This document shows, one piece after another, positions 1 to 27,672 of a DNA stretch of 27,672 bases. Numbering within the stretch: the stretch's first letter is position 1; each line of letters opens with the position of its first letter. Made by a program: the position numbers and the translations under genes. Source of the DNA: a virus; the IMG/VR virus record IMGVR_UViG_3300017613_001032, positions 1-27,672 of that record. One strand, given 5' to 3'. The notes under the pieces are model-generated. The model saw nothing but the letters and a program-made list of their open reading frames with translations, did not search any database and had not been told where the DNA came from.

Positions 1-77
1 AGGACATTTTTAATGCCCTTCATGTTGGAGCGGATAAAGTGCTGAATATCTTACAGCCTACCCAGAAAGTTTTACTG
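1..77. repeat. Left copy of an exact 77-bp inverted repeat
   Basis: Bases 1-77 are the perfect reverse complement of 338-414. The repeat starts at the first base of the window and lies inside the major capsid gene. Its length equals a k-mer size commonly used in de Bruijn assemblers, and it ends at the point where the two arms diverge. I read it as an artefact of a fold-back join and not as a biological repeat. Confidence 0.95.
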
Positions 78-337
78 TTTTCTGACCTGGTGTATGAGAA
101 TTACATGACCTATTTGGAGGGCCTGGGAACAGAACGGGCGCAACTGCAATTGGAGAACGGGCAGAGCCTTTACACTTACCGAGGTATTCCAATCCTTTCA
201 ATGGGATGGGATGTGCACCTGGATGCTGATTTTCCCCATGCAACGGGTGAACTTTATGCAAATCCACACAGGGTAATTTATACCTCAACGGATAACCTGG
301 TACTGGGTATTGATTCCATGAACCAGTTCAACGAAAC
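3..337 (+). pseudogene. Inverted downstream piece of the major capsid gene
   Basis: Read on the plus strand from base 3, this segment repeats the capsid residues DIFNALHVGADKVLNI and onward to KVLL. It then continues with about 86 new residues that look like the genuine C-terminal part of an HK97-type capsid protein (YRGIPIL..., then HRVIYTSTDNLVLGID). The repeat ends on a codon boundary at base 77, so the frame is preserved. Those residues should follow residue 325 of the minus-strand capsid gene. The plus-strand frame after base 337 runs into the repeat and is meaningless. The real capsid C-terminus extends past what is present here. Confidence 0.85.
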
Positions 338-414
338 CAGTAAAACTTTCTGGGTAGGCTGTAAGATATTCAGCACTTTATCCGCTCCAACATGAAGGGC
401 ATTAAAAATGTCCT
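338..414. repeat. Right copy of the 77-bp inverted repeat
   Basis: This is the exact reverse complement of bases 1-77 and lies within the minus-strand capsid reading frame (capsid residues about 300-325). The 260 bases between the arms are unique and encode the next part of the capsid protein in the opposite orientation. Confidence 0.95.
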
Positions 415-1312
415 CAGATTCACCGGAGGCAAGGGCCGTTGGTGCTGTGTTGGCTGTGGTTGCTGCATTGGTTCCGGTAAGGTCACCTGTTACGGCTGCA
501 CTCGGAACCGGGGTTGGTGTTGGCTGTCCTGCAACCGCACTTGTGAAAATTAGTGTAGTTGTTCCGGTCAGGGTAATACCCCTCAATGCCAGGGCTGCCG
601 CATGAAGGGCAACAAAATTGGCACTTGTTACGGCAATACTGGTTGCGAAGGTGGCCAGGTAATCTACGCCTCCAACGGCAACATTACAGGTTCCCGATGT
701 TCCGGTAAGGGTAACGGTATCCACCTGGGCAACGGCTCCATCTGCCACAACTTTGCGGAAAATTTGATCTGCCGTTGGGGTTGCGGATGCATTGGCCATA
801 AGTTTGTACAACATCCCACCATCAACGATTGAATTATAATCCAAATCGGCTGTACCGTCAATTACCCCGGAGGTAACGGTTTCCTTATTGGGATCATCCA
901 ACCAGAATTTCCGGTAAACATCGGAGGCAACCGCATTGCGGTAAATCTGAATTATAATGTCTTTCAACATTGTTTCATCCAGGTTGTTCCAGTCATCGGT
1001 TCTCAACCCCTGCTCGAAAACAGTTTGGTAAAATTCCAGGGCATCATCTGCCGCCTCTGCTTTCAGTCGGTACGTGGTTAACGTCCTCTGGGTATAGGTC
1101 GTTCCGGCTGCACCGTTAAAACCTTTTGCATACGCTTTCAACAATTTTGATGCTGCACCAAAATAGTTGAGTTTTTGGGAAGATTGCACATTAGGAATCA
1201 CTCTTACACCCTGGGTTTCCCAAGGCTGTTTCCCGATGAACATTGGCTTCAAGAAATATTCAAGATTTTCTTTGCCTCCCCAAGTGATCGAACTTGTGAT
1301 AAACATTGCCAT
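338..1312 (-). CDS. Major capsid protein, N-terminal 325 residues (assembly-truncated)
   Basis: This is the putative HK97-fold major capsid protein. It follows the head protease/scaffold gene by 35 bases. The start MAMFITSSITWGGKE is the first Met after the protease gene. Residues 1-190 form the typical N-terminal and peripheral region (YAKGFNGAAGTTY, then an Asp/Glu-rich helix at 85-125). Residues about 195-290 are a Thr/Ala/Gly-rich beta-type insertion (VDTVTLTGTSGT...), after which capsid-like sequence resumes at SEDIFNALHVGADKVLNI. The minus-strand frame formally continues to base 278, but those last 19 residues are the antisense of real capsid sequence. The true continuation is the plus-strand piece at 78-337. 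The assembled protein would exceed 411 residues. The capsid call rests on position and general features, not on a catalytic motif. Confidence 0.8.
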
Positions 1313-1347
1313 AATTTCTGCTTTTTTGTGTTATATATAAATGATTC

Positions 1348-1821
1348 CTATGAATGTACGTTGGTCATTTCCCCCCGGAGGTTGGCCAGGTCATTTTTCA
1401 ATGCCTTTTGCTCTGGGTTCAGGTTGGTTTCGTCCGGGTCTTCCAACCCTTCCGGCCCTTCTACCCCTGTGGATTTCCCGTTGAGTTTGGTTAGTTTCCC
1501 TTCCAGTTCAACAATCTTATCCGCTTTGGTTTTGTTCTCTGCGGTAAGGGTTTCCACCTGGGCCGTAATGGTGGCCTTTTCCGCTGTCAGGGTTTCCACC
1601 TGGGTAACGGCTTCCTCGTTACTTTCGATGGCATCCAGGGCAGTTTGAAACGCTGTGAGTTTTGCGTTCAGTTCTGCCGGGGCAACCAGTATTTCACCGT
1701 CTTTGGCAACTGGTGTTTCCTTACCTTCATCACCTTCTTTGGCTTCTGGCTTGATTAGGTTTGTGATGAAAGTTTTTAATTCATCGAACATACCCTTTAC
1801 GGTTTTTGTTTCTTCGGTCAT
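1348..1821 (-). CDS. Possible nested scaffold protein, in-frame internal start
   Basis: The 157 residues from Met229 of the protease gene begin MTEETKTVKGMFDEL, which reads like a natural N-terminus. They hold all of the coiled-coil scaffold part and none of the protease domain. Lambda uses the same arrangement: Nu3 is translated from an internal in-frame start in gene C. The bases before the ATG are A/T-rich, as is common for Bacteroidota starts. The internal initiation is inferred, not shown. Confidence 0.4.
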   Translation of the reverse strand: MTEETKTVKGMFDELKTFITNLIKPEAKEGDEGKETPVAKDGEILVAPAELNAKLTAFQTALDAIESNEEAVTQVETLTAEKATITAQVETLTAENKTKADKIVELEGKLTKLNGKSTGVEGPEGLEDPDETNLNPEQKALKNDLANLRGEMTNVHS

Positions 1822-2505
1822 AATATTTCGGTTTATAAAATTGTCCGGTATCCCCGCAATCCCCAGGTTCTTTAATACTGCGGGTTCGTTAACACACGCT
1901 GCCATTTTCATAGGCTCAAAAACATGATCAACAAATAAATTCTCCCTGGCTTCATCCGCATCCAACCATTTCCCGGCACCTTCATTTTCTTCCATTAACC
2001 TATCAACGATATAATTGATGGCACCCCGCTTGATATAAATATCCCGGATACGTGCATCAACCATATTCAATTGTTCAATCCTGGTGGAAAGTTCGTTTGC
2101 ATTGAACCCGCCCAACATCATCAAACTGGGTTTGTGGATAAGGAATAAACTGTTGCTTGAAATTTCTCTACGGTCACCCGCCATTGCAATTACTGTGGCA
2201 ATGGAGGCGGTAAAACCGTTAACCCTGGTAATAATTTCTGCCTTGTTTTGGGCCAACATATCATAAATGGAAATGCCATGATTTACATCCCCACCGTATG
2301 AATTAATATTTACAATTATTTTGGATGCCTGAGTTTGGCCGATGGCCTTTAACTCGTTTCGCATTTGCTCCTTTGTGTTGATTGCCCCGTCTTCTTCTTC
2401 GTCCCAAAAACTGCCACCAATGATTCCTTCAATGTTAATTTCAACCTCCAAATCTGATTTGGCAACTATGGTCATCCAGGGGGATTCATTGATAATTCTG
2501 TCCAT
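1348..2505 (-). CDS. ClpP-like head maturation protease fused to scaffold
   Basis: This 385-aa protein is a prohead protease of the ClpP/S14 type that would cleave scaffold and capsid during head maturation. The NSYGGD turn (68-73) matches the oxyanion region. GFTAS places the nucleophile at Ser101, FLIH gives His124, and LDADEA (181-186) supplies Asp182 or Asp184. Residues 1-215 are the protease domain. Residues about 230-345 are charged and coiled-coil-like, with VETLTAE repeated at 303 and 317, and the tail is acidic, as in scaffold proteins. The gene lies directly upstream of the capsid gene, its expected substrate. An internal Met229 probably starts a separate scaffold product. The family is known for protease-scaffold fusions in phages; the cleavage itself is inferred. 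Confidence 0.85.
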   Translation of the reverse strand: MDRIINESPWMTIVAKSDLEVEINIEGIIGGSFWDEEEDGAINTKEQMRNELKAIGQTQASKIIVNINSYGGDVNHGISIYDMLAQNKAEIITRVNGFTASIATVIAMAGDRREISSNSLFLIHKPSLMMLGGFNANELSTRIEQLNMVDARIRDIYIKRGAINYIVDRLMEENEGAGKWLDADEARENLFVDHVFEPMKMAACVNEPAVLKNLGIAGIPDNFINRNIMTEETKTVKGMFDELKTFITNLIKPEAKEGDEGKETPVAKDGEILVAPAELNAKLTAFQTALDAIESNEEAVTQVETLTAEKATITAQVETLTAENKTKADKIVELEGKLTKLNGKSTGVEGPEGLEDPDETNLNPEQKALKNDLANLRGEMTNVHS

Positions 2506-2686
2506 TTGTTATGCTTTAAAACACAATTGTAACGTATTCGCTTTCAGTCGTTTGGCCGTTCTCCGTGGTAAGGTGTTACCCCTCCGGTTGAACCGTTCGC
2601 TCTCATATGAGGCTACAAAGGGCCTTCAACGCCATTTAGGATATTGTAAATCTATGGGATATATTAAAGCGAAACGCCCCAATATT
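2506..2686 (-). other. 181-base gap with hairpins and a start-less reading frame
   Basis: No convincing gene is present. On the minus strand, codons 2625 down to the TAA at 2509-2511 are open and encode a basic peptide (RPFVASYESERFNRRGN and onward), but there is no ATG, GTG or TTG upstream and an in-frame TGA sits at 2626-2628. Three short dyads are visible: 2567-2580 (GGTAA/TTACC), 2585-2595 (CGGTT/AACCG) and 2602-2611 (CTCATATGAG). There is no CCWGG site here, unlike almost every gene nearby. It could be a gene remnant, or a leader or promoter region for the capsid genes. Confidence 0.4.
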
Positions 2687-2944
2687 TTACGGAAAAAGTT
2701 CGTTCCCCTCGGTAATTATTTTCTCTACGGTGGACAGGGAAACGGCCCATTTTTCGGCCAGGTGAATTTTCAATTCTGTCTTTCTTTTGATCATCTGTTT
2801 GGCCTGGTATTCATCCCGGATCAATACCCGCCTGGCCAAATCTTCCCTGATCAATCCAATATCAAACAGGGTTTCCGTGGTGGCTTTTTCTATGTTTAAA
2901 TTATCCTTAATGTAATCCCCGGTACGGTCACGGATATTTATCAT
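2687..2944 (-). CDS. Small protein after the tape measure, possible HTH
   Basis: This is an 85-aa protein of unknown function. Its ATG overlaps the tape measure stop by four bases (ATGA), so it is likely translated by coupling. It is largely helical and charged. The segment AEKWAVSLSTVEKII near residue 63 resembles a helix-turn-helix, which could make it a DNA-binding or head-tail regulatory protein, but the match is short. It is the last gene before the break that precedes the protease and capsid genes. Confidence 0.6.
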   Translation of the reverse strand: MINIRDRTGDYIKDNLNIEKATTETLFDIGLIREDLARRVLIRDEYQAKQMIKRKTELKIHLAEKWAVSLSTVEKIITEGNELFP

Positions 2945-5900
2945 AATTCTGCCGTTTCGTTAATCACTTCCAGTTCATCTTCCGCCCGGTGCAACTCATT
3001 TACATTTTGAGTTACCTTGATGTTTCTGAATAGGTCAACCATATCGCCACCCCCGTTTAGATTGGTAACGGATGGATCAGGAACACCCACAACCCCGCCC
3101 CCGGCAAATCCAGGAACCCCGGCTTTGCGTAAAACGTCTGGGCCACCGATGGCCAACTGTTGCCTGGTATTCAAAATGGCTTCCCCAGGTTTCACCAGGG
3201 CCAGGGTATTATCCCCGGATTTTGGATAACCTGGCATTTCTGAACCGCTCTGCACAACTCCCCCTTCCTCAAATTCCTGTTTCTTAATGGTGGATAATTG
3301 GACGGCTCCCGCTGCCGCTGTAATCCCTGCCAGGATAAAATTCAATGGTGGTGCCGCACTTCCCAGGGCCTTAATTACTCCCTGGGCAATATTGATAATG
3401 GAGGTAACGATTGCCAGGGCTTGTTCCCGTTTGGCATATTTGCGTTCGATTTCCTCCCGCTTTTTCGCATTGTCACCAACTGCGGAAAGTTCTTTTTCTT
3501 TCTGGGCCTTGAAAATATCTGAAAACTGGCCTGTAATATCTGATGCAATGGCCAACGATTTGGAAATTATTGCCAGGGTATCTTCCCAGTTTTCCATTTC
3601 AATACCCAAACGCTTCCGGCCACCATCCGCCTTAATCTCTGTAAGGTCGGTTTCCAATTGTTCCGCTGCCAACCTGGTTTGCTCATCAATCTGGGCCTGG
3701 GTCATTGTAATATTCTCCTGGGCCGCTTCAATGATTTCCTGTTGTGCATCAAAAAATTCCTTGGTAATATCCCCCTTTTGCAACCGCTCTTTTAATCCTT
3801 CCAGGGTAGTTGCAAGTTCCTGGTAATCGGCAATGGCTTCTTCTTTTAACAAATCCCTGGCAACCTGATCTTTGTTAAACTCCGCCAATCGTATTTCAGA
3901 TTCCAATTGCAGGGTACGTTCCAACTGGTCAACTTTTTCTTCCTGCCCTTTGGCTTCCTCCGCCTTAACCGCTTCCAGGCTTTGTTTTAAAATGTTTATC
4001 CGCTCCGCTGCAATTTTTTCTTCCGCCTTTATTACTTCGCCCCCGGATTGCTCCAATGCCTTTGCCGTTGCCCCCGCTGTATCGGAAATATATTTTTCCC
4101 GCTCCCGCTGTGCCTCATCTGCAATTTTTTTCTCCGCCCTGGCTTTTTCCTTTGCTGCTTTTTCCGCTGCCGCAATTTCTTCCTTGGTCTTTTTTTCCAG
4201 GGCCTTTGCATCTTTTTCCGCCTGTTCCGCTGCCGCATCTTCACGGGCCTTTTGTGCATCCGCTTCCCTACGTTTGGCCACATCAATTTCATCCTGGGCA
4301 ATCCGTTCCGCTGTCGCTTTGGCAATCTCTGTTTCCTTCTTTGCGGTTTCCTCTTTACGCCTCAGATATTCTTTGGCCAGGGCAACCCCTTCTTTTTTAT
4401 TCACCCCCTGGATCAATGCAAAATCCGCTGCATATTTTTCCGGGTCTAATAGGCCCCCGGTGATGGCTTCCTGTTCCTCAAAATACAATAGCATCTCGGA
4501 AAAATGGGTTCCCCTCCGGTTATCCAGGGCCTCCATTAAATCGAATGAACGTTTCAGTTCGTTATCCGTTTGGCGGTTGAATTTCTTTAGGGCAATATCC
4601 AGGTTCCCCAGTTCCAGGGTGAAATCCTTTAACCCCTGTACGATGAACCGCAACCCGCCCCCGGCCTTTAGTTTCAGAATAAACCCCTCCCAGGCACTTC
4701 CCAGGGCCTTAACGTCACCCGCATAGGAATCCAGTTTGAGTTTAACCATTTCATCCAGTTCATCCCTGGAATCCACAACCGCATCCTTTAATACCTTAAC
4801 ATCTTCCGCCCCGGCCAGGAATTTGGCGAAGGCTGCAACGCTCCGCTTATCGGTAATCTCCAACGTTTCATTCAGACCAATACCCGCATCATCCAGGGTA
4901 ATCAATCCCTCAACCAGTTCATCCAGGGTGCCAACAGAACCGCCCAACTTCTGGGCCAATGCTCCGTTTGCATCTGCCAGGTTCAGTAAAATATTCCTGG
5001 TGGCTGTCGCTGCTTTGGATGCATCAAAACCCGCATCCCGTAAACGGCCAGTAAGGGCAATGGTATCTTCCAGGGTAAAACCGTATGCTTTGGCAACTGG
5101 GCCAACGGTTCCCAGGATTGTTTCATAGTCGGCAAACGCCAATGCGGATTCCGTTGTTCCAATGGCCAGGGCTGCAACCGCCTGTTCCGTTTCCAGGGTA
5201 TCCAGGCCAAATGCCCGAACGGCAATACCCGCTGTTTTGGCCGCTGTTCCCAGGTCTGCTTCAACCGCTGTGGCAAATTTAATTACCCCTGGGGTTGCAT
5301 CCGCAATCTCTGCCGCTGTGAATCCCAGTTTGGCCAGGGAAATTTGAAGTTCCGTAACCTCGGTGGCTGTAAATATCGTAACGGCTCCCAGTTCTTTTGC
5401 CTGTTCGGTCAGTTCTTCAATTTCCTCCCTGGTGGATAATGTTACGGCTGCCAATGATGCTGTTGCGGAGTCGAAATTTCCCGTTACTTGTACCAGGTCT
5501 TTCATTACCCTGATTAGGGCAGTAAACCCCACCAATCCGGCTGCCATGCTTTTGAAGGATTGGACAATGCCCCGGCCATATTCACCAACCAGGGTTTTGG
5601 AACCGCTCATTGAACGGTCAAAATTCCGGATGGATGTTTTATTTTTGTCAACCTGTTTCTGGATTTCGGCAAATCGTTTTTTCCCGGTGGCTGTGGCCAG
5701 GTTCAGTTTGTTGGCCTCCTTAATCAAAAGGCTCGTTTCCATCCTGAGATTTTCCATTGAACCCTTTGTTCCCAACATCTGGGTTGCAAGGTTCCTATCC
5801 GCTTTGGCCAGTTGGGTTTTGGAAACCCGCAACTCGGTTTCCTTTAGTTTAACTTTCCTTAGAATCTGCTCGTATTTTTCCTGGGAAATGTTGCCTTTAT

Positions 5901-6030
5901 CCAAATCCTTTTTGGCTTTCTTCCGGGTTTCGGTAAGTTTCTGCAGGGCAGCATCAATATTATTAATCTCCTGGGCCACCTGGCCCCTGTCCTCAATATC
6001 AATCCTGAAACTATAAATCTTGTCTGCCAT
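2941..6030 (-). CDS. Tail tape measure protein (TP901 type)
   Basis: This 1029-aa protein sets tail length and is probably threaded through the tail tube. Residues 1-150 are predicted coiled coil (QEINNIDAALQKLTETRKK). Residues about 175-400 match the conserved TP901/PhageMin_Tail region, with alternating Ala-rich helices such as ELQISLAKLGFTAAEIADAT and YETILGTVGPVAKAYGFTLED. A long Ala/Lys/Glu-rich coiled coil covers about 560-700. Residues about 915-955 are hydrophobic (IVTSIINIAQGVIKALGSAA and on), followed by a Gly-rich stretch containing GGVV and GGPDVLRKAGVPGFAGGG. It is separated by five bases from the upstream tail gene. It is the longest gene here, as expected for a tape measure. 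Confidence 0.93.
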   Translation of the reverse strand: MADKIYSFRIDIEDRGQVAQEINNIDAALQKLTETRKKAKKDLDKGNISQEKYEQILRKVKLKETELRVSKTQLAKADRNLATQMLGTKGSMENLRMETSLLIKEANKLNLATATGKKRFAEIQKQVDKNKTSIRNFDRSMSGSKTLVGEYGRGIVQSFKSMAAGLVGFTALIRVMKDLVQVTGNFDSATASLAAVTLSTREEIEELTEQAKELGAVTIFTATEVTELQISLAKLGFTAAEIADATPGVIKFATAVEADLGTAAKTAGIAVRAFGLDTLETEQAVAALAIGTTESALAFADYETILGTVGPVAKAYGFTLEDTIALTGRLRDAGFDASKAATATRNILLNLADANGALAQKLGGSVGTLDELVEGLITLDDAGIGLNETLEITDKRSVAAFAKFLAGAEDVKVLKDAVVDSRDELDEMVKLKLDSYAGDVKALGSAWEGFILKLKAGGGLRFIVQGLKDFTLELGNLDIALKKFNRQTDNELKRSFDLMEALDNRRGTHFSEMLLYFEEQEAITGGLLDPEKYAADFALIQGVNKKEGVALAKEYLRRKEETAKKETEIAKATAERIAQDEIDVAKRREADAQKAREDAAAEQAEKDAKALEKKTKEEIAAAEKAAKEKARAEKKIADEAQREREKYISDTAGATAKALEQSGGEVIKAEEKIAAERINILKQSLEAVKAEEAKGQEEKVDQLERTLQLESEIRLAEFNKDQVARDLLKEEAIADYQELATTLEGLKERLQKGDITKEFFDAQQEIIEAAQENITMTQAQIDEQTRLAAEQLETDLTEIKADGGRKRLGIEMENWEDTLAIISKSLAIASDITGQFSDIFKAQKEKELSAVGDNAKKREEIERKYAKREQALAIVTSIINIAQGVIKALGSAAPPLNFILAGITAAAGAVQLSTIKKQEFEEGGVVQSGSEMPGYPKSGDNTLALVKPGEAILNTRQQLAIGGPDVLRKAGVPGFAGGGVVGVPDPSVTNLNGGGDMVDLFRNIKVTQNVNELHRAEDELEVINETAEL

Positions 6031-6035
6031 GATGT

Positions 6036-9618: not shown

Positions 9619-9619
9619 A

Positions 9620-10150: not shown

Positions 10151-10154
10151 TTTC

Positions 10155-11649: not shown

Positions 11650-11650
11650 T

Positions 11651-11917: not shown

Positions 11918-11986
11918 GATATAAATTTTTAATTATTAGATTTTGGTAAGTTAAGTTATTCCGGTGTATCTATTCACGTAAACTTT

Positions 11987-13049: not shown

Positions 13050-14510
13050 CTATGTTACACCCATGCCAAAAATGGTGCTTCCGGCCCGGTCACCCTCCGC
13101 CCGGTCAATGGCCATTACCAGGGTATCCGTAATATCCGTATACTCTCCAAAGGGAAACGCTTTCAATTCATCAATAAACATATCAACCCAGGCCCCGGAT
13201 GATTCCAGAAACACCCGCTGCCCCTCAATGTATGGCAACTTTCCCTTCAACCTTTCAACCTTCCCTTCCCTCGGTGGCTTGTCCAGGATAACGTTTAACG
13301 GGGTGTACTTCCATAGCATCTGGCCAATGGATAACCCGGAGGCTTTCGGCTCAATGATCACCGCACTTTCCCCGTTCATGCTGTTCCGATTTGTCACCCT
13401 GGGAATCTGTTTTAACAGGTCAGGTAATTCCATCCAGGCCCGTTCACAATCCCGGATATACAGATTATTTCCCCAGGTTCCCGCCACCAGTATGGCCGTT
13501 GGACAGTTCAATAAATCCTGGGTGTACGCTCCATCAATAAACACATTCCAAACAATCTTTTCCTGGGAATCATACAACCGTTTTTCCAACTCATGCAATT
13601 GGAACCGCCCGAACCATTCAGGCCGTACCAGGTTGCCACCCTCTGCAATTGGGTTCTGTGCAAACTGGCCGGAATAATTATTGCTGCCCAGTGATACCCG
13701 GAACCCTTTTAAAACGTCGTGGGGTAACCGCTCCGGGTCTAATAATCCATTCATGTACCGGGCTTCCAGGCTGTGCGGAATAACATATTTTGATGCCTCT
13801 GCGGGTAAACAAATATGCCTATACATTCCTTCCTTTTTGTTGAGGCAATGGCCCGTTAAATCATTCACTCCCAACCGCTGCATAACAATAATTTTCTGGC
13901 TTACCCTGGCATCCGTTAACCTGGTTGGTATTGTGTTATCCCAAAGTTCATTAATCTCATTTAACTGAACTGGTGAGGCTGCCATTTTGGGGTTCAATGG
14001 ATCATCACAAATAAAAATATCTGCGTGTTTACCTGTTGCGCTTCCCTTTATCCCAATGGCTATACGGCTGCCCCCCTTATCATTGGCATACTCAGATTTT
14101 TTGTTCACATCAAATTTCAGTTGGAATACGCTGCCAAAGTTTTCCTGAAACCAATCACTCTGTATAATATCCCTGGATTTCACCGCATGGATAATGGCCA
14201 GGTTTTCCGCATAACTGGTTGTGATAAATCTCAGGTGCGGGGAATGTAGCCAACACCAAACCGGGAAAACAATTGTGATTAGTGAGGATTTCAGGGTTGA
14301 AGGTGGCACGTTGATAATGGTATCCTGCACCCTGGTTTCCCTGTGCTTTACTTTCAGCAAAATATTTTCCAGTTGTTCGCATAGGTATGCATGATGCCAG
14401 TTCCATTTCAACGGGGTTTCCGGCTCAATCACTTTCCAGGCTGCCTTAAAAAAATCTTCCAGGCTATCCCGGTACATCCAAATTTCCGTATGCCTATCGT
14501 TCGCATCCAT
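13050..14510 (-). CDS. terL: Terminase large subunit
   Basis: This 486-aa packaging motor has an N-terminal ATPase that drives DNA into the procapsid and a C-terminal nuclease that cuts the concatemer. NVPPSTLKSS (67-76) is the degenerate Walker A, and IFICDD (165-170) is Walker B with the catalytic acidic pair. TSYAENLAI (98-106) is in the place of the adenine-binding/coupling region. The nuclease carries VFIDGAYT with Asp326, IIEPKASG with Glu387, and TDITDTLVMAID with Asp462, matching an RNase H-type metal centre. Its ATG overlaps the upstream gene's stop as TAATG. Its length is normal for the family. The last residues end 25 bases before the next gene. Confidence 0.95.
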   Translation of the reverse strand: MDANDRHTEIWMYRDSLEDFFKAAWKVIEPETPLKWNWHHAYLCEQLENILLKVKHRETRVQDTIINVPPSTLKSSLITIVFPVWCWLHSPHLRFITTSYAENLAIIHAVKSRDIIQSDWFQENFGSVFQLKFDVNKKSEYANDKGGSRIAIGIKGSATGKHADIFICDDPLNPKMAASPVQLNEINELWDNTIPTRLTDARVSQKIIVMQRLGVNDLTGHCLNKKEGMYRHICLPAEASKYVIPHSLEARYMNGLLDPERLPHDVLKGFRVSLGSNNYSGQFAQNPIAEGGNLVRPEWFGRFQLHELEKRLYDSQEKIVWNVFIDGAYTQDLLNCPTAILVAGTWGNNLYIRDCERAWMELPDLLKQIPRVTNRNSMNGESAVIIEPKASGLSIGQMLWKYTPLNVILDKPPREGKVERLKGKLPYIEGQRVFLESSGAWVDMFIDELKAFPFGEYTDITDTLVMAIDRAEGDRAGSTIFGMGVT

Positions 14511-15071: not shown

Positions 15072-15121
15072 ATTTTATTCCTCCATTGGATTTGAAATTT
15101 GTCAACAAGAAAATGAGGTGT

Positions 15122-15730
15122 CTAAATAGGTTTAGCGGCATTGAATACGTGCTGTCCTACGTCAGGATGAACACAGTTTCTCAAGATTTGTGTTGGGCAA
15201 TGATTTCCATCATAGTATATGTTTTCATCATAATGGATGCCCAACCAATCTTGTAATTGTTTCTTTGCAGTCAGGTTTTGCCTATTTATGAAATTTTTAA
15301 ATTCTGGAATATCCATTTGAGGAATATCAAAATTACTCCAAAACAAGTGCCTTCCCAAAGCCGTTGTGGGGGGTACTAGAGGAGCATAATAAGGTTTTAC
15401 GTTCTCAACAACCCATTTCCCCTTGAAGTTGTGGTAGAGGAGGAGAATCTCTTCATATAGCTTTAGGTCAGCGTATCGGGGTTTCCTGTTGCGACCTGAC
15501 CGAATCATTCTGCTGTGACTCTGGCACGGTGGACTGCTCCAAATGAAATCGAAGTCTTGGTAGTTCTTCAACAGGTATTCGTGAGCATCTCCAAGTATAA
15601 CAGTGTCCTTTGGATGATTTACCTGGTAAACGTGTGCGATTTTTTCATCCCATTCAATGGCGGTAACTTTCACATTTTTCCAAAGCTTTCGATTACCGCC
15701 TAAACCCGCATATAAATTCAGTACTTTCAT
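15122..15730 (-). CDS. Short DNA cytosine-C5 methyltransferase
   Basis: This 202-aa enzyme would transfer a methyl group from SAM to C5 of cytosine in duplex DNA. Motif I is NLYAGLGGNRKLW (5-17), motif II AIEWD (25-29), motif III GDAHEYL, motif IV SSPPCQSHSR with catalytic Cys69, motif VI WVVENV with Glu109, GRHLFWSN in the place of motif VIII, and NCVHPDVGQHVF near the end as motif X. It is much shorter than Dcm-type enzymes (over 400 aa) and has only a short target-recognition region, a size seen among phage C5 enzymes. Composition differs from the neighbours: one CCWGG in 609 bp, against 8-20 per kb nearby. No restriction partner is visible. The start lies one base after the upstream stop. 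Confidence 0.9.
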   Translation of the reverse strand: MKVLNLYAGLGGNRKLWKNVKVTAIEWDEKIAHVYQVNHPKDTVILGDAHEYLLKNYQDFDFIWSSPPCQSHSRMIRSGRNRKPRYADLKLYEEILLLYHNFKGKWVVENVKPYYAPLVPPTTALGRHLFWSNFDIPQMDIPEFKNFINRQNLTAKKQLQDWLGIHYDENIYYDGNHCPTQILRNCVHPDVGQHVFNAAKPI

Positions 15731-15731
15731 A

Positions 15732-15908: not shown

Positions 15909-15972
15909 ATCCTAAATCGTTTTAAACATTGTTTTAAGCCTCATACGTGGCACTTCGTTTCAACTGGCCCCG

Positions 15973-16687: not shown

Positions 16688-16899
16688 TACAGTTGTTTTA
16701 ATTTCTGGTACATCTCCGGGGAAACAATCAAAACGGTTCCCTGTTGAATACAATCAATTTTCTTTCCGCTCAGAACATTCACTTCCCGCCTGGTTTCTAT
16801 ACTGGTTGCCGGAAACGTTTCATCAACTGGCAATAGTTGTGATTCAATTACCTGGATTGCTCCCTGGCTGTTGTAATTAAAAGTGAATGCATTTGTCAT
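16687..16899 (-). CDS. 70-aa hypothetical protein
   Basis: This small protein starts at 16899, four bases inside the radical SAM gene end (ATGA overlap), and its stop overlaps the small terminase start. It has no Cys pair or membrane segment. The middle (ATSIETRREVNVLSGKKIDC) looks like a short strand-turn-helix. The function is unknown. Confidence 0.6.
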   Translation of the reverse strand: MTNAFTFNYNSQGAIQVIESQLLPVDETFPATSIETRREVNVLSGKKIDCIQQGTVLIVSPEMYQKLKQL

Positions 16900-18020
16900 T
16901 TCATTTTATCTTTTGCGAACTGAATAAAACGTTTCGTATCATTGGTTGGATACTTCATTTGAAATTCCTTCATGTAGGTTGCCTTTTTGATGAATTCTGA
17001 CAAATCCCCTGCCAGTAAAAAATCCCACAATCCGGCCCTGGAAATATTACCTGTAACAACCCAGGCCAGGGTTTGCCCCCAAAGGTCACCGATGCCCCCC
17101 CATTTTCTAAGTAGTACCCCGGTATCCAAATCTTTGAAACGCATCATTTTCATTGAAATGTTCATTGGGTGTTCCTTCACCAGTTTTACCCTGTCGTACA
17201 CTTTTTCCGGTGAATCATCCGCATCATATAGCATTAACAGGGAATGGTTTTTGGCCCGGATTTTATTTTCATGCAGGAAATCCAGGGTGAATATAACGGA
17301 ATCCTTAACCCTGTCGGAATCCCAGGCAAACCGTAACACTTCCCAAACCTTTGGATATTCCAGGAACACTTCCTGAATCTTTTTGTTTTTGTGGAAAATC
17401 TCCGCATCCATCGCCTGGTTGAAATCAATTTTTATTCCGCTCTGGTGGCAATATTTCAAAACCTCCCTGAAATGGTTACTGCCACAAGCCAAAATATTAT
17501 TATCAAAACCGTAGAACTTTTTGTACCTGGCATCAATCTGGGTTTTCCAATCAAATGATTTATCAACCTTCCCCTCCAACCTGGGAACAACGCACCAATC
17601 ACAACTATTTGGGCAACCCCTGGAAGTGAACCCGTATGAATAATCGTATCCTGTAATTCCGAAATCCGGTGTCAATTTTTCCAGTTCCAAATCCCGGCCA
17701 ATGAACAGTTCAATATTTTTCCCGGCAAACCATTTTTCAAACTTATCCTGGATCAATGAAAGGGAAACGCCCCCGATGATAATTTTTGCCTCCGGGTACA
17801 ATTTGCGGTAAGCCAAAACCCATTTTACATCTGATTGGTAATCAAAAAGGAAAATGAAACTGAAATAGATTATATCCGGCCTGTTCCTGGGCCTTTTCCC
17901 GGCCATCACCAGGTTAACGTTATCCCCCTGGGCTTTGTGCCTGGCTGACAATCTGAGCAATGCCAGGGGAACAAATACCCGGAAATGCTTTTTGGTTGTA
18001 TCAATCAATAAAATGTTCAT
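16896..18020 (-). CDS. B12-type radical SAM protein
   Basis: This 374-aa radical SAM enzyme has the cluster-binding CxxxCxxC at Cys136, Cys140 and Cys143 (RGCPNSCDWC). Residues 1-110 look like a Rossmann-type cobalamin-binding region: a start of MNILLIDTTKK, a PLALLRLSARHKAQGD helix and IIIGGVSLSL near 80-90, although no clear cobalamin DxHxxG motif is seen. Such proteins occur in many gut phages and their reactions are mostly unknown. The ATG overlaps the ParB-like stop (TAATG) and its own stop overlaps the next ATG, so it is part of a coupled set with the sulfotransferase-like and ParB-like genes. It could modify DNA, a nucleotide or a protein, and the sequence does not decide which. Confidence 0.85.
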   Translation of the reverse strand: MNILLIDTTKKHFRVFVPLALLRLSARHKAQGDNVNLVMAGKRPRNRPDIIYFSFIFLFDYQSDVKWVLAYRKLYPEAKIIIGGVSLSLIQDKFEKWFAGKNIELFIGRDLELEKLTPDFGITGYDYSYGFTSRGCPNSCDWCVVPRLEGKVDKSFDWKTQIDARYKKFYGFDNNILACGSNHFREVLKYCHQSGIKIDFNQAMDAEIFHKNKKIQEVFLEYPKVWEVLRFAWDSDRVKDSVIFTLDFLHENKIRAKNHSLLMLYDADDSPEKVYDRVKLVKEHPMNISMKMMRFKDLDTGVLLRKWGGIGDLWGQTLAWVVTGNISRAGLWDFLLAGDLSEFIKKATYMKEFQMKYPTNDTKRFIQFAKDKMK

Positions 18021-18583
18021 TACGCTTTTGGGTCTGGTGGATCAAAAATACCCTGGATCACCTGTAAAATTGTGGCCTCCGCTTCCAGGTACGCTTCCGA
18101 AATTAGGATTTCTTTGTCTAACTGTATTTCCTCCGCATATTTATTGCGGAGTACCATAACCTCAGTAATAAAAGTTTTCGTTTTATCCTCATCATCCATA
18201 TCCAGGTCAATTTTTTCCACATCGGGAAACGCTGCCTCAACCCCCCAGGCTTCCAGGTCACCTTCCGGCCATTCATTGGCCAGGGTATCCATATCCCACA
18301 TTCCAAAATTCACATTATCCTTAATGATAAATTCCTTTTTCTGTTCCTCGGTTAAATCCTTTGCCTTTTTAACCCACCCTGCCGGAAGGTTTGTGTAATC
18401 CAGTTCCAGTAATGCCCGGTAACGCATATTGCCCCCCAGGATTATACCGTTTTCATCAATCACAATTGGCCGCAATTCCATCATTTTGGGGAATGCCTTA
18501 ATTGAGGTAACCAATTTCTCCATACGGTCATCTTTGATATACCTGGGGTTTTCCTCATTCAGTCGAATATCTGTAATTTTCAT
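18020..18583 (-). CDS. ParB/Srx-fold domain protein
   Basis: This 187-aa protein has an N-terminal ParB-like domain. MKITDIRLNEENPRYI and SIKAFPKMMELRPIVI lead to GIILGGNMRYRAL, where the GGNMR segment (50-54) holds the signature of the ParB/Srx phosphate site. FIIKDNVNFGMWDMD and LANEWPEGDLEAWGV (86-115) match phage ParB-domain proteins that are often fused or adjacent to DNA methyltransferases. No separate DNA-binding HTH is visible, so plasmid-style partition is unlikely. It is coupled to a sulfotransferase-like gene upstream (ATGA) and the radical SAM gene downstream (TAATG). Confidence 0.85.
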   Translation of the reverse strand: MKITDIRLNEENPRYIKDDRMEKLVTSIKAFPKMMELRPIVIDENGIILGGNMRYRALLELDYTNLPAGWVKKAKDLTEEQKKEFIIKDNVNFGMWDMDTLANEWPEGDLEAWGVEAAFPDVEKIDLDMDDEDKTKTFITEVMVLRNKYAEEIQLDKEILISEAYLEAEATILQVIQGIFDPPDPKA

Positions 18584-19481: not shown

Positions 19482-19483
19482 AT

Positions 19484-22069: not shown

Positions 22070-22081
22070 ATATTGCCAAAT

Positions 22082-22895: not shown

Positions 22896-23110
22896 CCCTG
22901 GCCCCCTTTCTTTTTTTTAGGGCCAATTTCCCAATCAAATTCACTGTGCGGATTTTCCGGCTGCAAATATCCGGCTTCGCAAGTTTCAATTCCATAACCT
23001 TCGCATGGACACAATTCAGAGTTTAAACAAGCACATTCCCCAGGTTGAAATAATCCATCAAACCCGTTTTCTTCCAGGTAGTTTTTAACTATCGTTTTTA
23101 CATCCATCAC
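22892..23110 (-). CDS. Cys-rich small phage protein
   Basis: This 72-aa protein, MMDVKTIVKNYLEENGFDGL, has six Cys residues in a GECACLNSELCPCEGYG segment followed by ETCEAGY. The pattern is typical of small phage proteins predicted to bind zinc. A Lys-rich end encodes an A-rich run without a frame change. It starts by ATGA overlap with the 62-aa gene. Confidence 0.65.
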   Translation of the reverse strand: MMDVKTIVKNYLEENGFDGLFQPGECACLNSELCPCEGYGIETCEAGYLQPENPHSEFDWEIGPKKKKGGQG

Positions 23111-23295
23111 CCTGGGTATATTTGGTTCATAAACTGGGCCTGGCTATCCTGGTGGATCGGGAAGGATAACCCCCCGGCCACCTCAACGGAAAGAAATGTT
23201 CCATCCTGTAATTTGGTTCCTATTCCGGTAATTTTCCGCCTGGGTAAATCCAGGGTCATACCGTTTGTGGCTTTCACTTTTATTCTGTTTGTCAT
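23107..23295 (-). CDS. 62-aa hypothetical protein
   Basis: This small beta-rich protein (IKVKATNGMTLDLPRRKITG, then GTKLQDGTFLSVEVAGG) has no recognised domain and no Cys. It lies in the replication-region run of small genes, with a four-base gap upstream and an overlap downstream. Its sequence is consistent with a small SH3-like fold, not tested. Confidence 0.55.
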   Translation of the reverse strand: MTNRIKVKATNGMTLDLPRRKITGIGTKLQDGTFLSVEVAGGLSFPIHQDSQAQFMNQIYPG

Positions 23296-23299
23296 AAGG

Positions 23300-23581
23300 C
23301 TATTTCTTTAACTGGTTTAATAATTTCCTAACCCCCCGGCCATCGGTAACCGTTTTGCCTGTGAACCATCCGCTGTAAGGGAACAGTTTTATAACTGAAC
23401 CCTTCCAGTTAAACCGGATTTCTGTTTCACTAAATTTGGTTACTGCCAGGCCAATTTTATTAAGTTCGCCCAGGGCATAATTCATACGAACAGGGGAAAG
23501 GTTTTTTTCTCTTTCCTGGTCTAATCTGTTGCTCATATCCGCAACTGTTTTGGCATCGTTTTTACATTGTGCTTTGTCCAC
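23300..23581 (-). CDS. 93-aa hypothetical protein
   Basis: This protein has an N-terminal helical stretch (MDKAQCKNDAKTVADMSNRL and further) followed by a beta-like part, IRFNWKGSVIKLFPYSGWFT, then a short helix. The function is unknown. It follows the replication protein by 36 bases. Confidence 0.55.
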   Translation of the reverse strand: MDKAQCKNDAKTVADMSNRLDQEREKNLSPVRMNYALGELNKIGLAVTKFSETEIRFNWKGSVIKLFPYSGWFTGKTVTDGRGVRKLLNQLKK

Positions 23582-23617
23582 CTGGGCCGGGGTTCGCCCT
23601 TCCTGTAAAACGTTATT

Positions 23618-24364
23618 TCAATCCCCAGAATTTTCCTTTTTTTCATCCTGTTTGGCTTTTTTCTGTCGTAAATATTCTGCCCTGGTAATCTCGTTACCTG
23701 TTACTGGGGAAGGCTTAAAATTTTCTTTCCCGGCCACCAGGTTTGAACCCCCGGCCTGTTTGAAATTTGAAAGTTTTAATTTTCCATCCCGCAAATCCCG
23801 CCTGGCAAAACTTCGCATGGTGGCAATCCAATCTTTACGCATATTGCCATTATCTGACCAATCCAATGCGGAATTATAATAAAACTTCACATCCGCATTT
23901 TTCAGGTCATCGGTTTTGGCAAATGCCTGGGCTACCTGGGTAATCGTAACATCTGAATTTTTCAGTAAACAATTACCTTTACTTTTATTTACAACTTCAT
24001 TTCTATTTTCACTTTCATTTTCTAAAGGCATTGCCGTGGCATTGCCATCGCATACCTCAGAAGGTTTTTTATCCCAACGTTTTTTAGCATTTAAACTTTG
24101 CTGTGCTGAATGTTTTTTGCGTTTCTGCATTTCTTCATCCATCCGTACATTGAAATATTTGCCCTCGGTATCTTTAGAGAATTTGGATAAAACATCTTCA
24201 TCCAGGGTTCCGCAAATTTTTAAAACAATCGCTTCCCCCAGGTGGCCTTTTTGGTGCTGAATGCATAACAATTGGATGTACTGCCCAATTTGTGAATCAC
24301 TCAAACCAATGCACCCAACAATAAAATCTGCCGGGTAAAATAAGACTGCCGGGTCTTTACCCAT
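23618..24364 (-). CDS. DUF1376/DnaD-like replication protein
   Basis: This 248-aa protein starts MGKDPAVLFYPADFIVGCIG, and residues 1-55 (SDSQIGQYIQLLCIQHQKGHL) match the winged-helix N-terminal region of DUF1376-type phage replication initiators. A Lys/Asn-rich linker follows, including CDGNATAMPLENESEN near 108-123. The C-terminal part, FYYNSALDWSDNGNMRKDWI, is a DnaD-like helical segment. It likely binds the phage origin and recruits host helicase. It lies next to the gp3-like and exonuclease genes. The linker sequence reappears as a remnant at about 12.6 kb. Confidence 0.7.
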   Translation of the reverse strand: MGKDPAVLFYPADFIVGCIGLSDSQIGQYIQLLCIQHQKGHLGEAIVLKICGTLDEDVLSKFSKDTEGKYFNVRMDEEMQKRKKHSAQQSLNAKKRWDKKPSEVCDGNATAMPLENESENRNEVVNKSKGNCLLKNSDVTITQVAQAFAKTDDLKNADVKFYYNSALDWSDNGNMRKDWIATMRSFARRDLRDGKLKLSNFKQAGGSNLVAGKENFKPSPVTGNEITRAEYLRQKKAKQDEKKENSGD

Positions 24365-24367
24365 AGC

Positions 24368-25276
24368 CTAATTATCAAAACTGTTCTGTGGCTTCTCCGG
24401 GTCATTTGGATCAACTTCAAAAAGGGTTCCTGGGCCTGGCTCTGAACTTGCCGGGGCATCAATTTGGTCAGATTGATCCAGTTTTGCATCCTCGTAAATT
24501 TCGGCCTCTGTCGGTGTCAACCCCTCAGAATCATTTTTTGCCTGGGGTAACGCTGCCAGTTTTGCATCCGTAATCATCCCGATTTTTTTCAAATCCAAAC
24601 CGGATTCCATGAACCCCCGCAACTGTTCCATATTCTCGGTGCTGATATTTGGCACCAGGGAAACAACTGGGAACGTGGTTTTATCCCCTGGCTTGTTACC
24701 CTTCACCTTTTTTACGGTCAGGTCAAACGGGATATTCACAACCGTTCCGGCCTGGGCTTTGATTTCGTCAAACATGGAACGAATGGCAACCATACTGGAT
24801 TTATCCCCGGAGGTTGAAAATTTCCAACAACCGAAAATACCCCGGATTGCCGGGATAATAAAATGCAATGTTAAAACTGGTTTCCAGGTCACCCCGTATT
24901 GCTTCGTATAAGCCTCCATTTTGGCCCTATCGGTTTCAGGGGCATACTGGGTGCCATCCCACAAATGGAACGTTTCACCATCCCCGTAACCGCTTCTACG
25001 GCCCTCATTGTTTCTTCCATCCCATTCCTCAAAACAGGATTGGAAATTATCATCTGAAATAAAGACAATTTGGATTTTGGTTGGCTTGTCTGGGTATGCC
25101 TCGTTAAACTTCGCTGCATAATCCCCGGTGGCAATAAAATAATCCAGGGAAACCGGGTATTCCTTCCCGGTTTTTTGGCTTTTGCGTTTCTCCCCAATAC
25201 GCACATTTCCGATCAACGGCAACCTGGTTGCGGGTTGGCCGGATGTTTTTCTAATAATTCTTGAATTTCTGTTCAT
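24368..25276 (-). CDS. gp3-like/RDF-family protein
   Basis: This 302-aa protein begins with an Arg-rich N-terminus (MNRNSRIIRKTSGQPATRLP). The conserved block near 40-75 (YPVSLDYFIATGDYAAKFNE and KPTKIQIVFISDD), followed by WDGR and YGDGETFHLWDG, recalls the gp3-like family that includes recombination directionality factors of serine-integrase phages and is often annotated as a hydrolase or metal-binding protein. The C-terminal third is acidic and low complexity. No integrase is visible in this window, so the role here is uncertain; single-stranded DNA binding next to the exonuclease is another option. Confidence 0.5.
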   Translation of the reverse strand: MNRNSRIIRKTSGQPATRLPLIGNVRIGEKRKSQKTGKEYPVSLDYFIATGDYAAKFNEAYPDKPTKIQIVFISDDNFQSCFEEWDGRNNEGRRSGYGDGETFHLWDGTQYAPETDRAKMEAYTKQYGVTWKPVLTLHFIIPAIRGIFGCWKFSTSGDKSSMVAIRSMFDEIKAQAGTVVNIPFDLTVKKVKGNKPGDKTTFPVVSLVPNISTENMEQLRGFMESGLDLKKIGMITDAKLAALPQAKNDSEGLTPTEAEIYEDAKLDQSDQIDAPASSEPGPGTLFEVDPNDPEKPQNSFDN

Positions 25277-25312
25277 CTGTTTGAAATTAAAAGGTTAATA
25301 ACTTACTCAAAG

Positions 25313-25663
25313 TTAGCACTTTATCCATTGGGTAATGTACCCGGTATGGCTTGATGCTTTTTTGGCTTTCACAATTCCCAGGGCCTTAACAAATCCCTGC
25401 CGTTTAAGCCTCACAATAACCCCTCCCCAGGCTTTATTTGTTGGAGGTTGTGGAATGACCATTTCGGAGGCTTCAACCGCCTGTTCAATGGTAAATGGAG
25501 TTTCCGGCCTAATCCAGTTTTTCAAAAACCGTTCCGCCTGTTCGCTCCATGATAGATGCACCTGGTTTGCATGGCTTTCCGCCTGTTGCATACCCCTTTC
25601 CTTTAACGCCTGGCCGGAAGGCTCCCTGGGAACCTCCTGACCAAATAAATCAAATTGTTTCAT
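25313..25663 (-). CDS. Winged-helix-like small protein
   Basis: The start at 25663 (MKQFDLFGQEVPREPSGQAL) is chosen because it overlaps the previous stop as ATGA; an upstream Met at 25681 lies inside the previous gene. The 116-aa product has a helical central part, then TNKAWGGVIVRLKRQGFVKA, a likely recognition-helix/wing segment, and a basic end. The fold suggests DNA binding in the recombination region. Confidence 0.6.
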   Translation of the reverse strand: MKQFDLFGQEVPREPSGQALKERGMQQAESHANQVHLSWSEQAERFLKNWIRPETPFTIEQAVEASEMVIPQPPTNKAWGGVIVRLKRQGFVKALGIVKAKKASSHTGYITQWIKC

Positions 25664-25788
25664 TTTATATTTTTGAACCATTTTTTATGAATCCGCCAAA
25701 TAACAAAGGCAATTATCAGGATGCAAAAACATCCATACAGGCCAACGAAAACCGCCAACCGTTCCAGGTAATCAACGTTTGGATTCAT
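25660..25788 (-). CDS. 42-aa single-span membrane peptide
   Basis: MNPNVDYLERLAVFVGLYGC starts a 42-residue ORF whose ATG overlaps the previous stop (ATGA). Residues about 11-31 (LAVFVGLYGCFCILIIAFVI) form one membrane helix, followed by a basic tail. It is the second of two tandem tiny membrane proteins. A holin, exclusion or regulatory peptide are options; none is supported by sequence. Confidence 0.55.
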   Translation of the reverse strand: MNPNVDYLERLAVFVGLYGCFCILIIAFVIWRIHKKWFKNIK

Positions 25789-25895
25789 TTTTTCCTCCTT
25801 TCCTTTAGAATCTGGTAAACCAGTACCAGGTACATGATCATGGCCCCGGTTGAAATCCCCAGGGCAAATACGCAAATAGGTTCCATATTATTCAT
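25785..25895 (-). CDS. 36-aa single-span membrane peptide
   Basis: MNNMEPICVFALGISTGAMI starts a 36-residue ORF ending in KERRKK. Its stop overlaps the next ATG, and its start overlaps the previous stop by eight bases. Residues about 5-27 are a membrane helix with a basic cytoplasmic tail. It is coupled to the 42-aa peptide below. Confidence 0.55.
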   Translation of the reverse strand: MNNMEPICVFALGISTGAMIMYLVLVYQILKERRKK

Positions 25896-26052
25896 CACGG
25901 ATTTCCTTTCCTTTAGGTTCCAGTATTGCATAAGGTTCCAGTTTTTCAATGGCTTCCCTTAATCGGGCAATCCCGTTAACCTTTGCCATTATATGGGTAT
26001 CCTGGCTTAAATGCCATTCCGCCTTTTTGAGAATTTCTATAATTGCCTCCAT
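25888..26052 (-). CDS. 54-aa helical protein
   Basis: MEAIIEILKKAEWHLSQDTH starts a 54-residue helical protein that lies in an overlap with the exonuclease stop and with the next gene. A central VNGIARLREAIEKLEPYAIL segment looks amphipathic. The function is unknown. Confidence 0.5.
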   Translation of the reverse strand: MEAIIEILKKAEWHLSQDTHIMAKVNGIARLREAIEKLEPYAILEPKGKEIRDE

Positions 26053-27170
26053 TATTCACCCTCCTTTCCAATTGCCAGGCCCGTTTCCCCCAGGTCACCA
26101 TCCATCAAATCATCAACGGTATCATATTTCCAAACCTCAACCGGGGTTTCATCTTCAAACCGCTCTGTTGCCAGTTCAGGTGCCGTTTTGATTTTGTAAT
26201 TTTCAACCGGATCAACCCCCAGGGTAACAACCCCGGAATAAAAGGTTTTGGTTTTTTCCTCAATCGGTTTCTGGCTCAGTTTATACATTTGAATCATGGT
26301 GTACATCTGATCATCACTAAAGGAATCCGTTTGTTCTGCCAGGTGGTAACCAGGTTCCGTTTTCCAGTTTTTCGGTGACCAGTTAAACAGGCGAACATCA
26401 ATATTACCCAGGTCGGAAGGTGGCGCAAAATTGCGAACCCAAAGGGCCTTATATAATCGCAACTGGGCTGCCGCATCAACCATACCCCCGTATGATTTCC
26501 GGCCAGATTTGAAATCAACAATGGCCAGGGAACGAACCCCCTTTGTTGTTAATTTTGGTTGCCCTTTATTGGCACCAGATTTATAAACCTCCCCCCAATC
26601 CCCCTTTGTTGGGATTGTCATAATGCAAGGCAAATCAACCGTTCCGGCAATCCCCAGTTCCTTATCACATAAGGAAATTTCAATGGCCAGGGGTTTTACA
26701 TCATAATCGGAAACCCATTTGGCAAAGGCAATAATATCCTGCTTAATATCCTCAGTCCATTGCCAGGTATTAACAACCCGGTTCTCCCTTTGTGCATACT
26801 CATGCACCAGGGAATCAACAAATTGAAGATCAATAGAACCATTTATCAACACATGGGCAAACATTGTGTGCATAAGGGTTCCGTAACTGGCCCGTTCATC
26901 CCGGTATTTAATTGCGTTATCATATCCCATATCCGCAATCCATTTTACCAACTGTTCCGCTTTGGGAAGGGTTGCCCCGGTGACTGTCGTAACCCCGGAA
27001 TAAAAATCATAATCCGGTGTTCCGTTGGTTTCCGTAAGTTCGTTAATCGTAAAATAATGCCTGGCTCCTTTTACATCTAATCGGTAAAGGGTAACAGGCG
27101 GAAGTTCCAGGGTTGCATCATCAAAATACATACTCCGAACTTCACCAATTGTAAGGTTCTGGTTGTTCAT
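26052..27170 (-). CDS. PD-(D/E)XK exonuclease, Cas4/RecB type
   Basis: This 372-aa protein carries the full Cas4/RecB nuclease set: YGTLMH with His101, LAIEIS with Glu164, GIAGTVDL with Asp179, IVDFKSG with Asp219 and Lys221, and AAQLRLYKA with the Gln236 and Tyr240 motif. It would degrade DNA ends during recombination or replication, as lambda Exo or RecB-type phage exonucleases do. No iron-sulfur Cys cluster is visible, so it is not a typical Cas4. It starts 30 bases after the upstream gene and ends overlapping the 54-aa gene. Confidence 0.85.
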   Translation of the reverse strand: MNNQNLTIGEVRSMYFDDATLELPPVTLYRLDVKGARHYFTINELTETNGTPDYDFYSGVTTVTGATLPKAEQLVKWIADMGYDNAIKYRDERASYGTLMHTMFAHVLINGSIDLQFVDSLVHEYAQRENRVVNTWQWTEDIKQDIIAFAKWVSDYDVKPLAIEISLCDKELGIAGTVDLPCIMTIPTKGDWGEVYKSGANKGQPKLTTKGVRSLAIVDFKSGRKSYGGMVDAAAQLRLYKALWVRNFAPPSDLGNIDVRLFNWSPKNWKTEPGYHLAEQTDSFSDDQMYTMIQMYKLSQKPIEEKTKTFYSGVVTLGVDPVENYKIKTAPELATERFEDETPVEVWKYDTVDDLMDGDLGETGLAIGKEGE

Positions 27171-27201
27171 AATGTTTAAAATTTGAGGTTAAAAAAAACT
27201 G

Positions 27202-27408
27202 TTATTTTGTGGCAAATTCTGCCCGGTGTACTGGTAATCTGTGAATGCTGAATGCTCCAAATTCTGCGGCCCCCTTCCCGGCTTCCAATAACCGCCAAAC
27301 GGTGGAATATTGGTTGGCTGCCAGGATGGATTCCAACAGGGTTTTCAAATTACCAAACGCCCGGATATTTTCGCCATCTCTTAAAATGTAAATTAAATCT
27401 CGCTTCAT
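27202..27408 (-). CDS. 68-aa hypothetical protein
   Basis: MKRDLIYILRDGENIRAFGN begins this small protein, and its ATG overlaps the preceding stop as TAATG. A LKTLLESILAANQYSTVWRL helix follows. It has no recognised domain. Confidence 0.5.
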   Translation of the reverse strand: MKRDLIYILRDGENIRAFGNLKTLLESILAANQYSTVWRLLEAGKGAAEFGAFSIHRLPVHRAEFATK

Positions 27409-27551
27409 TAGTTCATACTTATTTCCGGTGGTTCAAATGCTCCATTTTCTACACGAAAGAAACGGCCCCCCCGCTCAATTGATACGCTCCGTACCCGGTA
27501 TTGATTTACCTGGTGGAACCCCAAACGAACAAAGGAATCCGTTACTTTCAT
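27408..27551 (-). CDS. 47-aa hypothetical protein
   Basis: MKVTDSFVRLGFHQVNQYRV starts a 47-residue ORF that ends at TAA 27408-27410, overlapping the next ATG. A likely promoter lies 28 bases upstream, so this may be the first gene of the operon downstream of it. Confidence 0.5.
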   Translation of the reverse strand: MKVTDSFVRLGFHQVNQYRVRSVSIERGGRFFRVENGAFEPPEISMN

Positions 27552-27578
27552 CTTATATCTGGATACATAATACATACA

Positions 27579-27608
27579 CAAATATAATTATATCTGATCA
27601 AATGCCAA
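27579..27608 (-). promoter_or_regulatory. Possible Bacteroidota promoter
   Basis: On the minus strand, TATATTTG (27579-27586) matches the -7 element TAnnTTTG, and a TTG is found 19 bases upstream, the usual spacing for the -33 element. It falls at the short gap between the partial upstream gene and the 47-aa gene and would drive transcription of the right-hand genes. Confidence 0.4.
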
Positions 27609-27672
27609 GAAGTTTACCCGCAATCTGTTCCAGTTCACGTTTGCGCCCGGCCTCGGAATCCCTGGCCAGGGC
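27598..27672 (-). CDS. C-terminal end of a gene cut by the window edge
   Basis: The minus strand reads 24 codons ending in RELEQIAGKLLGI and a TGA at 27598-27600. It is helical and basic (ARDSEAGRKRELEQIAGKLL). No identity can be given. Two CCWGG sites occur within the last 15 bases of the window. Confidence 0.5.
   Translation of the reverse strand, partial: ALARDSEAGRKRELEQIAGKLLGI

Follow-up and report, generated by a model that had tools for sequence, protein, structure and literature searches.

A phage genome fragment saturated with the palindrome CCWGG and sister phages that avoid it

Gene content and CCWGG sites of the window

The virus record IMGVR_UViG_3300017613_001032 of IMG/VR, whose 27,672 bases were analysed as one stretch and are referred to here as the window, carries the palindrome CCWGG at very high density. 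Silent-site choice in the window is strong, specific for CCWGG and drawn to the site at all five of its positions, and the opposite choice is made at the same site in a sister phage. The genes lie mostly on the minus strand. Since the terminase and the recombination directionality factor (RDF) match Bacteroidota phages and prophages best, the window is likely to be a fragment of a Bacteroidota-type phage with a Bacteroidota host. The CCWGG sites and the annotated genes are as follows.

1..27672, strand not applicable: CCWGG sites, 293 in number (148 CCAGG and 145 CCTGG on the plus strand), evenly spread
278..1312, minus strand: probable major capsid protein, adjoining the head maturation protease; 81% identical in the sister L192
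1348..2505, minus strand: head maturation protease (ClpP-like)
2941..6030, minus strand: tape measure protein (PF10145), the densest CCWGG region with 15-18 sites per kb
13050..14510, minus strand: terminase large subunit, with best matches to Bacteroidota phages and prophages
15122..15730, minus strand: compact C5 cytosine methyltransferase of 202 amino acids (motifs PPCQ and ENV; PF00145, E 8e-14; PHROG 363)
16896..18020, minus strand: radical SAM domain protein (PHROG 9298, E 9e-40)
18020..18583, minus strand: ParB N-terminal domain protein (PF02195 match under its cut-off)
24368..25276, minus strand: RDF-like (Gp3-like) protein (PF18897, E 2e-33)
26052..27170, minus strand: PD-(D/E)XK exonuclease

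The overall density was 10.6 sites per kb at a G+C content of 44%, and the gaps between sites had a median of 69.5 bp and a maximum of 620 bp. Fifty-eight of the 293 sites were located in the 5.3 kb outside the assigned gene set, at a density about equal to that of coding DNA. An earlier note on this DNA had described ten to twenty sites per kb; the saturation was borne out, but the range was too high, as fixed kilobases held 4-18 sites. The local counts that it compared with those of GGWCC were exact (21 against 0 in 4501-5500, and 10 against 0 in 26041-27040). Over the whole window we counted 1 GGWCC, 132 CCSGG, 74 GGSCC, 5 CTWGG and 5 CCWAG.

CCWGG enrichment beyond codon and context nulls

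To define the expectation in coding DNA, synonymous codons were shuffled within genes. Under this null 70 CCWGG sites were expected and 235 were seen (3.35-fold, z 25), and CCTGG and CCAGG were the top two enriched five-mers by a wide margin. Codon bias is thus ruled out as the cause of the excess, in agreement with the earlier note, which had also rightly described the site as being supplied by several amino acids. All three codon phases were used (148, 69 and 18 sites). Enrichment over a dinucleotide null was 4.9-fold. The excess was therefore confirmed, whereas the more than tenfold size first given to it was not: a fair figure is 3.3-5 fold, depending on the control, and the larger value was inflated because its control, GGWCC, is itself an avoided word in the window (1 seen, 27 expected under the codon shuffle). 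The two words that differ from CCWGG by C to T at position 2 or by its complement were likewise depleted, about sevenfold in coding DNA under the codon shuffle (CTWGG, 4 seen and 26.5 expected; CCWAG, 5 and 34.4), although neither is absent from the window as a whole; the earlier note had described an apparent absence in the kilobase that it counted.

We also applied a harder null, in which codon choice was fitted on codon identity and on di- and trinucleotide context, with training restricted to places unable to form CCWGG. The odds ratio for CCWGG in the window was 5.75 (447 observed, 273 expected, z 17). Even when the context model was fitted to all places, which favours the null, CCWGG still ranked 1st of 475 five-mers. 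Plain dinucleotide context was rejected as the cause, as it shrinks the excess and leaves it standing. The site thus behaves as a highly iterated palindrome, over-represented beyond both codon and composition nulls.

Synonymous choice at each position of the site

CCWGG occupied 244 of the 295 places (83%) that one synonymous change makes or breaks, compared with 32% in shuffled genes. Among 11,728 locus-by-palindrome comparisons, that for CCWGG in the window had the most extreme z-score. Leucine with C before it and G after it was encoded by CTG in 105 of 108 cases, and in 10% where it had neither neighbour. The fourfold third base ahead of CTGG was C in 57 of 58 cases, so that A, G and T were all lost, and serine, threonine, proline and alanine codons ahead of AGG ended in C in 50 of 51. 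At positions 1 to 5, the base fitted CCWGG in 85, 97, 85, 97 and 98% of synonymous cases, against expectations of 35, 47, 53, 62 and 75%; at the centre, position 3, A or T was preferred over G or C.

Opposite states among sister phages

The contig L192, whose capsid protein is closest to that of the window (81% identity), was paired with the window at 100/99 support and contained a single CCWGG in 19.2 kb, with an occupancy of 0.007. In the capsid family as a whole, the odds ratios for CCWGG were 5.75 in the window and 3.99, 3.79, 3.72, 3.46, 2.04, 0.89, 0.07, 0.04 and 0.02 in the others, which makes five strong accumulators, one weaker accumulator, one neutral phage and at least three near-total avoiders, the avoiders including L192, L200 and L201. 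Both states were found under the sample prefixes 3300017971 and 3300017963 (L199 together with the avoiders L200 and L204; L198 together with the avoider L192). It thus appears that strong selection favours CCWGG in some phages and opposes it in their sisters. A column-by-column reconstruction of ancestry between the window and L192 was rejected: their third positions are only 40% identical, and the two are therefore too diverged for directions of change to be inferred. No known phage isolate was found to be capsid-related to the window.

A second family and a wider survey

The contig L046, which was reached via its methylase, was also saturated with CCWGG. It belongs to a family unrelated to that of the window, and its tape-measure relatives are probably phages of Actinobacteria, judging from a weak match to a Gordonia phage. 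Among the 44 testable contigs of this family, 24 attracted CCWGG, 5 avoided it and 15 were between, and the family tree implies that phages have changed from one extreme state to the other at least twice. The pooled accumulators had odds ratios of 5.0 for CCWGG, 0.34 for CCSGG, 0.04 for GGWCC and 0.02 for GGSCC. Outside both families attraction was rare, being found in 0 of 11 phages and terminase or RDF relatives, in 2 of 55 other methylase-bearing contigs and in 2 of 74 prophage loci.

CCWGG in sampled host sequences

A set of 395 Bacteroidota genomes was scored by CCWGG triplets, that is clusters of three sites, rather than by plain CCWGG. Triplet density was at most 222 per Mb in these genomes, against about 720 per Mb in the window (20 events). 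Odds ratios were obtained from about 50 Bacteroidota stretches, mostly of 20 kb and mostly picked from both extremes, and from one metagenome-assembled genome (MAG); they ranged from 0.01 to 2.29 in the stretches. Over-representation of the kind seen in the window was thus not found in the cellular sequences sampled, Bacteroidota and the one MAG, in which the odds ratio was 2.29 at most. Inheritance of the density from the host genome was rejected, as no sampled Bacteroidota sequence comes close, with the proviso that the window's own host may differ. In the Bacteroidota chromosomes sampled, whether or not they have vsr, a milder CCWGG pattern was centred on positions 2 and 4, and no preference was seen at position 3.

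A gene for the Vsr repair endonuclease was present in 116 of the 395 genomes, and its link to CCWGG was weak overall (p 0.05). The genomes with the strongest vsr matches had a higher ratio of CCWGG to GGWCC (p 2e-5), in a subset that was chosen afterwards and is confounded by kinship. No Vsr came to notice in the scans of the window's proteins.

One further phage contig, L113, was binned with a Muribaculaceae MAG. It had a CCWGG odds ratio of 3.67, no CCSGG and a C5 methylase of 544 amino acids.

Relation to known systems and proposed explanation

The closest known kind of system is that of highly iterated palindromes such as HIP1 (GCGATCGC) of cyanobacteria, a palindrome that is kept by selection, has a methylated core and occurs once per 1131 bp in Synechocystis (PMC6604393). 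Like HIP1, the CCWGG of the window is a palindrome at very high density, apparently through selection, that has been spread through genes by base substitution. Unlike HIP1, it has only 5 bp and, at 1 per 94 bp, is about 12 times as dense as HIP1 in Synechocystis; it was found in phages and not in the sampled hosts, and it is almost totally avoided in a sister. We found no report of a CCWGG-enriched phage in the open-access literature, the subscription literature being outside the search.

Avoidance of restriction sites is known in phages (PMC6286503). L192, L200 and L201 resemble this for CCWGG, and so does the window for many other palindromes, whereas CCWGG itself is accumulated in the window. 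Restriction at CCWGG offers a ready explanation for avoidance: hosts cutting the unmodified site would cause phages to shed it. For accumulation we infer that the host is again the selecting agent. Some hosts would place a methyl mark on CCWGG and possess a defence that this mark represses, rather than one that the unmarked site triggers, so that each added CCWGG would weaken the attack and phages would pile up sites. The defence island system associated with restriction-modification (DISARM) has been described as being repressed by methylation and not activated by a signal sequence, and as attacking targets more strongly when these lack cognate methylation sites (PMC9142583), and DISARM has been reported as marking CCWGG (PMC12926258). 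A mark-repressed system that marks CCWGG is one in which extra sites could help a phage. The hosts of the accumulators may accordingly carry a DISARM-like defence repressed by CCWGG marks, for which class 2 DISARM, with its methylase marking CCWGG, would be the nearest known model and not an identification. The methylase of the window may add to the marking; it would not be required, since related accumulators are without one. We favour this explanation, selection by hosts on CCWGG in both directions through cutting and through a mark-repressed defence, as a tentative one that falls well short of being probable.

Several observations weigh against it. No DISARM gene was linked to any accumulator or its host here; NF038325, the model of the DISARM helicase, had no match in 8 CCWGG-rich Bacteroidota genomes, beyond which DISARM was not surveyed, and the system may be too rare to account for a family in which 24 of 44 phages attract CCWGG. 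The only phage with a nominal host is L113, and CCWGG is mildly avoided in the pieces of its MAG (0.3) but attracted in the phage contig, although the bin may be wrong. CCSGG was attracted in the window and in the avoiders, with odds ratios of 1.8-3.7 where CCWGG was not an alternative, and a general preference for CC-N-GG therefore accounts for some of the CCWGG excess in Bacteroidota phages.

A broader idea, that CCWGG acts as a protective self-mark kept at maximised density and that lineages switch from saturated to erased states, or back, as the defence of the host dictates, may be correct, although we would put it somewhat short of an even chance. In one family, sister genomes and phages within single metagenome samples have either erased this site or filled up to 83% of the places open to it. 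This runs counter to the familiar rule of phage genomics that viruses shed restriction sites. If the interpretation is true, phages can be selected to gain a restriction-type palindrome rather than lose it. If the cause is a mark-repressed defence, site density would become a readable fingerprint of defence and host, and the long-standing question of why palindromes of the HIP1 type exist would gain a rapidly evolving system that offers both states for direct comparison.

Alternative explanations

The alternative that survives best is a general context preference, in which mutation or codon-pair effects lead Bacteroidota phages to favour CC and GG round whatever base lies between them, avoiders face a restriction enzyme for CCWGG and accumulators have merely been released from it. 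CC and GG were the most enriched dinucleotides under the codon shuffle. CCSGG, which the earlier note had expected not to be equally enriched, did stay below CCWGG, but it was up about twofold in the window and in L192 alike; in the context model its odds ratio in the window was 1.7, and 3.35 where CCWGG was not an alternative. GGWCC, named with it as a comparison, was depleted instead. A model of trinucleotide context takes out most of this general preference, and CCWGG stays first among the words. A/T is favoured at position 3, and the accumulators of the L046 family avoid CCSGG (0.30-0.34) while attracting CCWGG (5.0-6.7), and the word selected there is therefore CCWGG itself. We regard this explanation as unlikely, if still a serious competitor.

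CCWGG might instead be a Chi-like signal, unmethylated sites shielding phage ends from a host recombination nuclease of the AddAB, RecBCD or AdnAB type, a possibility that seems improbable to us. Phages acquiring a host signal would show such a pattern, the window encodes its own exonuclease, and selection seems to act on density rather than position. The Chi sites known so far lack symmetry and vary from one lineage to another. Here, one palindrome is used by two unrelated phage families, no asymmetry or orientation bias was found (148 CCAGG and 145 CCTGG), and the odds ratio in the sampled host chromosomes is 2.29 at most.

More doubtful still is the idea that CCWGG is the target of the C5 methylase encoded by the phage itself and that this enzyme requires closely spaced targets, for instance to provide a shield against several other enzymes. 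A C5 methylase is present in the window, L046, L068, L056 and L113, all of which attract CCWGG, but L046, L068 and L056 were found only via the methylase, a selection of the sample. Relatives of the window methylase that are 60-74% identical occur in other phages that are not saturated with CCWGG; it has no close relative with a solved structure. In the accumulators L193, L199 and L203 (records of 37-42 kb) there was no match to PF00145 or PF01555, so that, provided the records are complete, accumulation does not seem to require a phage methylase of either kind. A phage-encoded methylase was rejected as a necessary cause on these two grounds.

Very-short-patch repair of CTWGG to CCWGG by Vsr with a Dcm-like methylase, the cause proposed in the earlier note after the signature of enteric bacteria (Bhagwat and McClelland 1992, as cited in PMC4687349), shares with the window the identical site and the depletion of CTWGG and CCWAG and could draw on the vsr association of the strongest matches, but it is very unlikely to be the main cause, because Vsr acts only from T to C at position 2 and on the complement, whereas attraction in the window extends to positions 1, 3 and 5, A and G alternatives are lost besides T, and the overall vsr association is weak. 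Words that are no substrate of this repair were also depleted in the window, to 0.27 of expectation for CAAGG, 0.31 for CCACG and 0.02 for GCTGG.

Other features of the window and of related loci

The gene order at 278-6030 is unusual, with the terminase on one side of the tape measure gene and the genes for the head protease and capsid on the other. At 16896-18583 the radical SAM gene adjoins the ParB-like gene. A radical SAM homologue is present in the avoider L200, and the radical SAM protein therefore does not explain the CCWGG state; when this protein was used as a handle to find relatives of the window, none was confirmed.

Dozens of other palindromes were at zero in the window, including CGCG, CGSCG, ACCGGT, GGTACC and CCGCGG, and AGCT, CTAG and GGWCC were nearly eliminated. 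AGCT, CTAG, CGCG and GGWCC are avoided by L192 as well. CASTG and many six-base palindromes were avoided in the window along with AGCT, CTAG and CGCG, most of them also in L192. CGCCG/CGSCG filled 0 of 222 reachable places in the window, which is not shared by L192, where CGSCG filled 57 of 187. The non-palindromic GCTGG/CCAGC, which looks like another restriction-type site, was seen once in the window against 41 expected under the codon shuffle, and was near-absent also from the avoiders L200 and L201.

CCSGG was enriched in the CCWGG-avoiding phages and prophages L092, L141, L154 and L262-L264, even where CCWGG was not an alternative. Mere displacement of CCWGG was rejected as the source of CCSGG attraction in avoiders, which persists at such places. 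On the contig of L001 that carries L269-L270, from a phage sharing the RDF and exonuclease genes, both CCNGG and GGNCC are avoided almost completely, with 1 CCWGG, 0 CCSGG and 0 GGWCC in 40 kb at 48% G+C. The clearest other palindrome acting like CCWGG was GCGC in L074, which filled 131 of 180 places against 72 expected.

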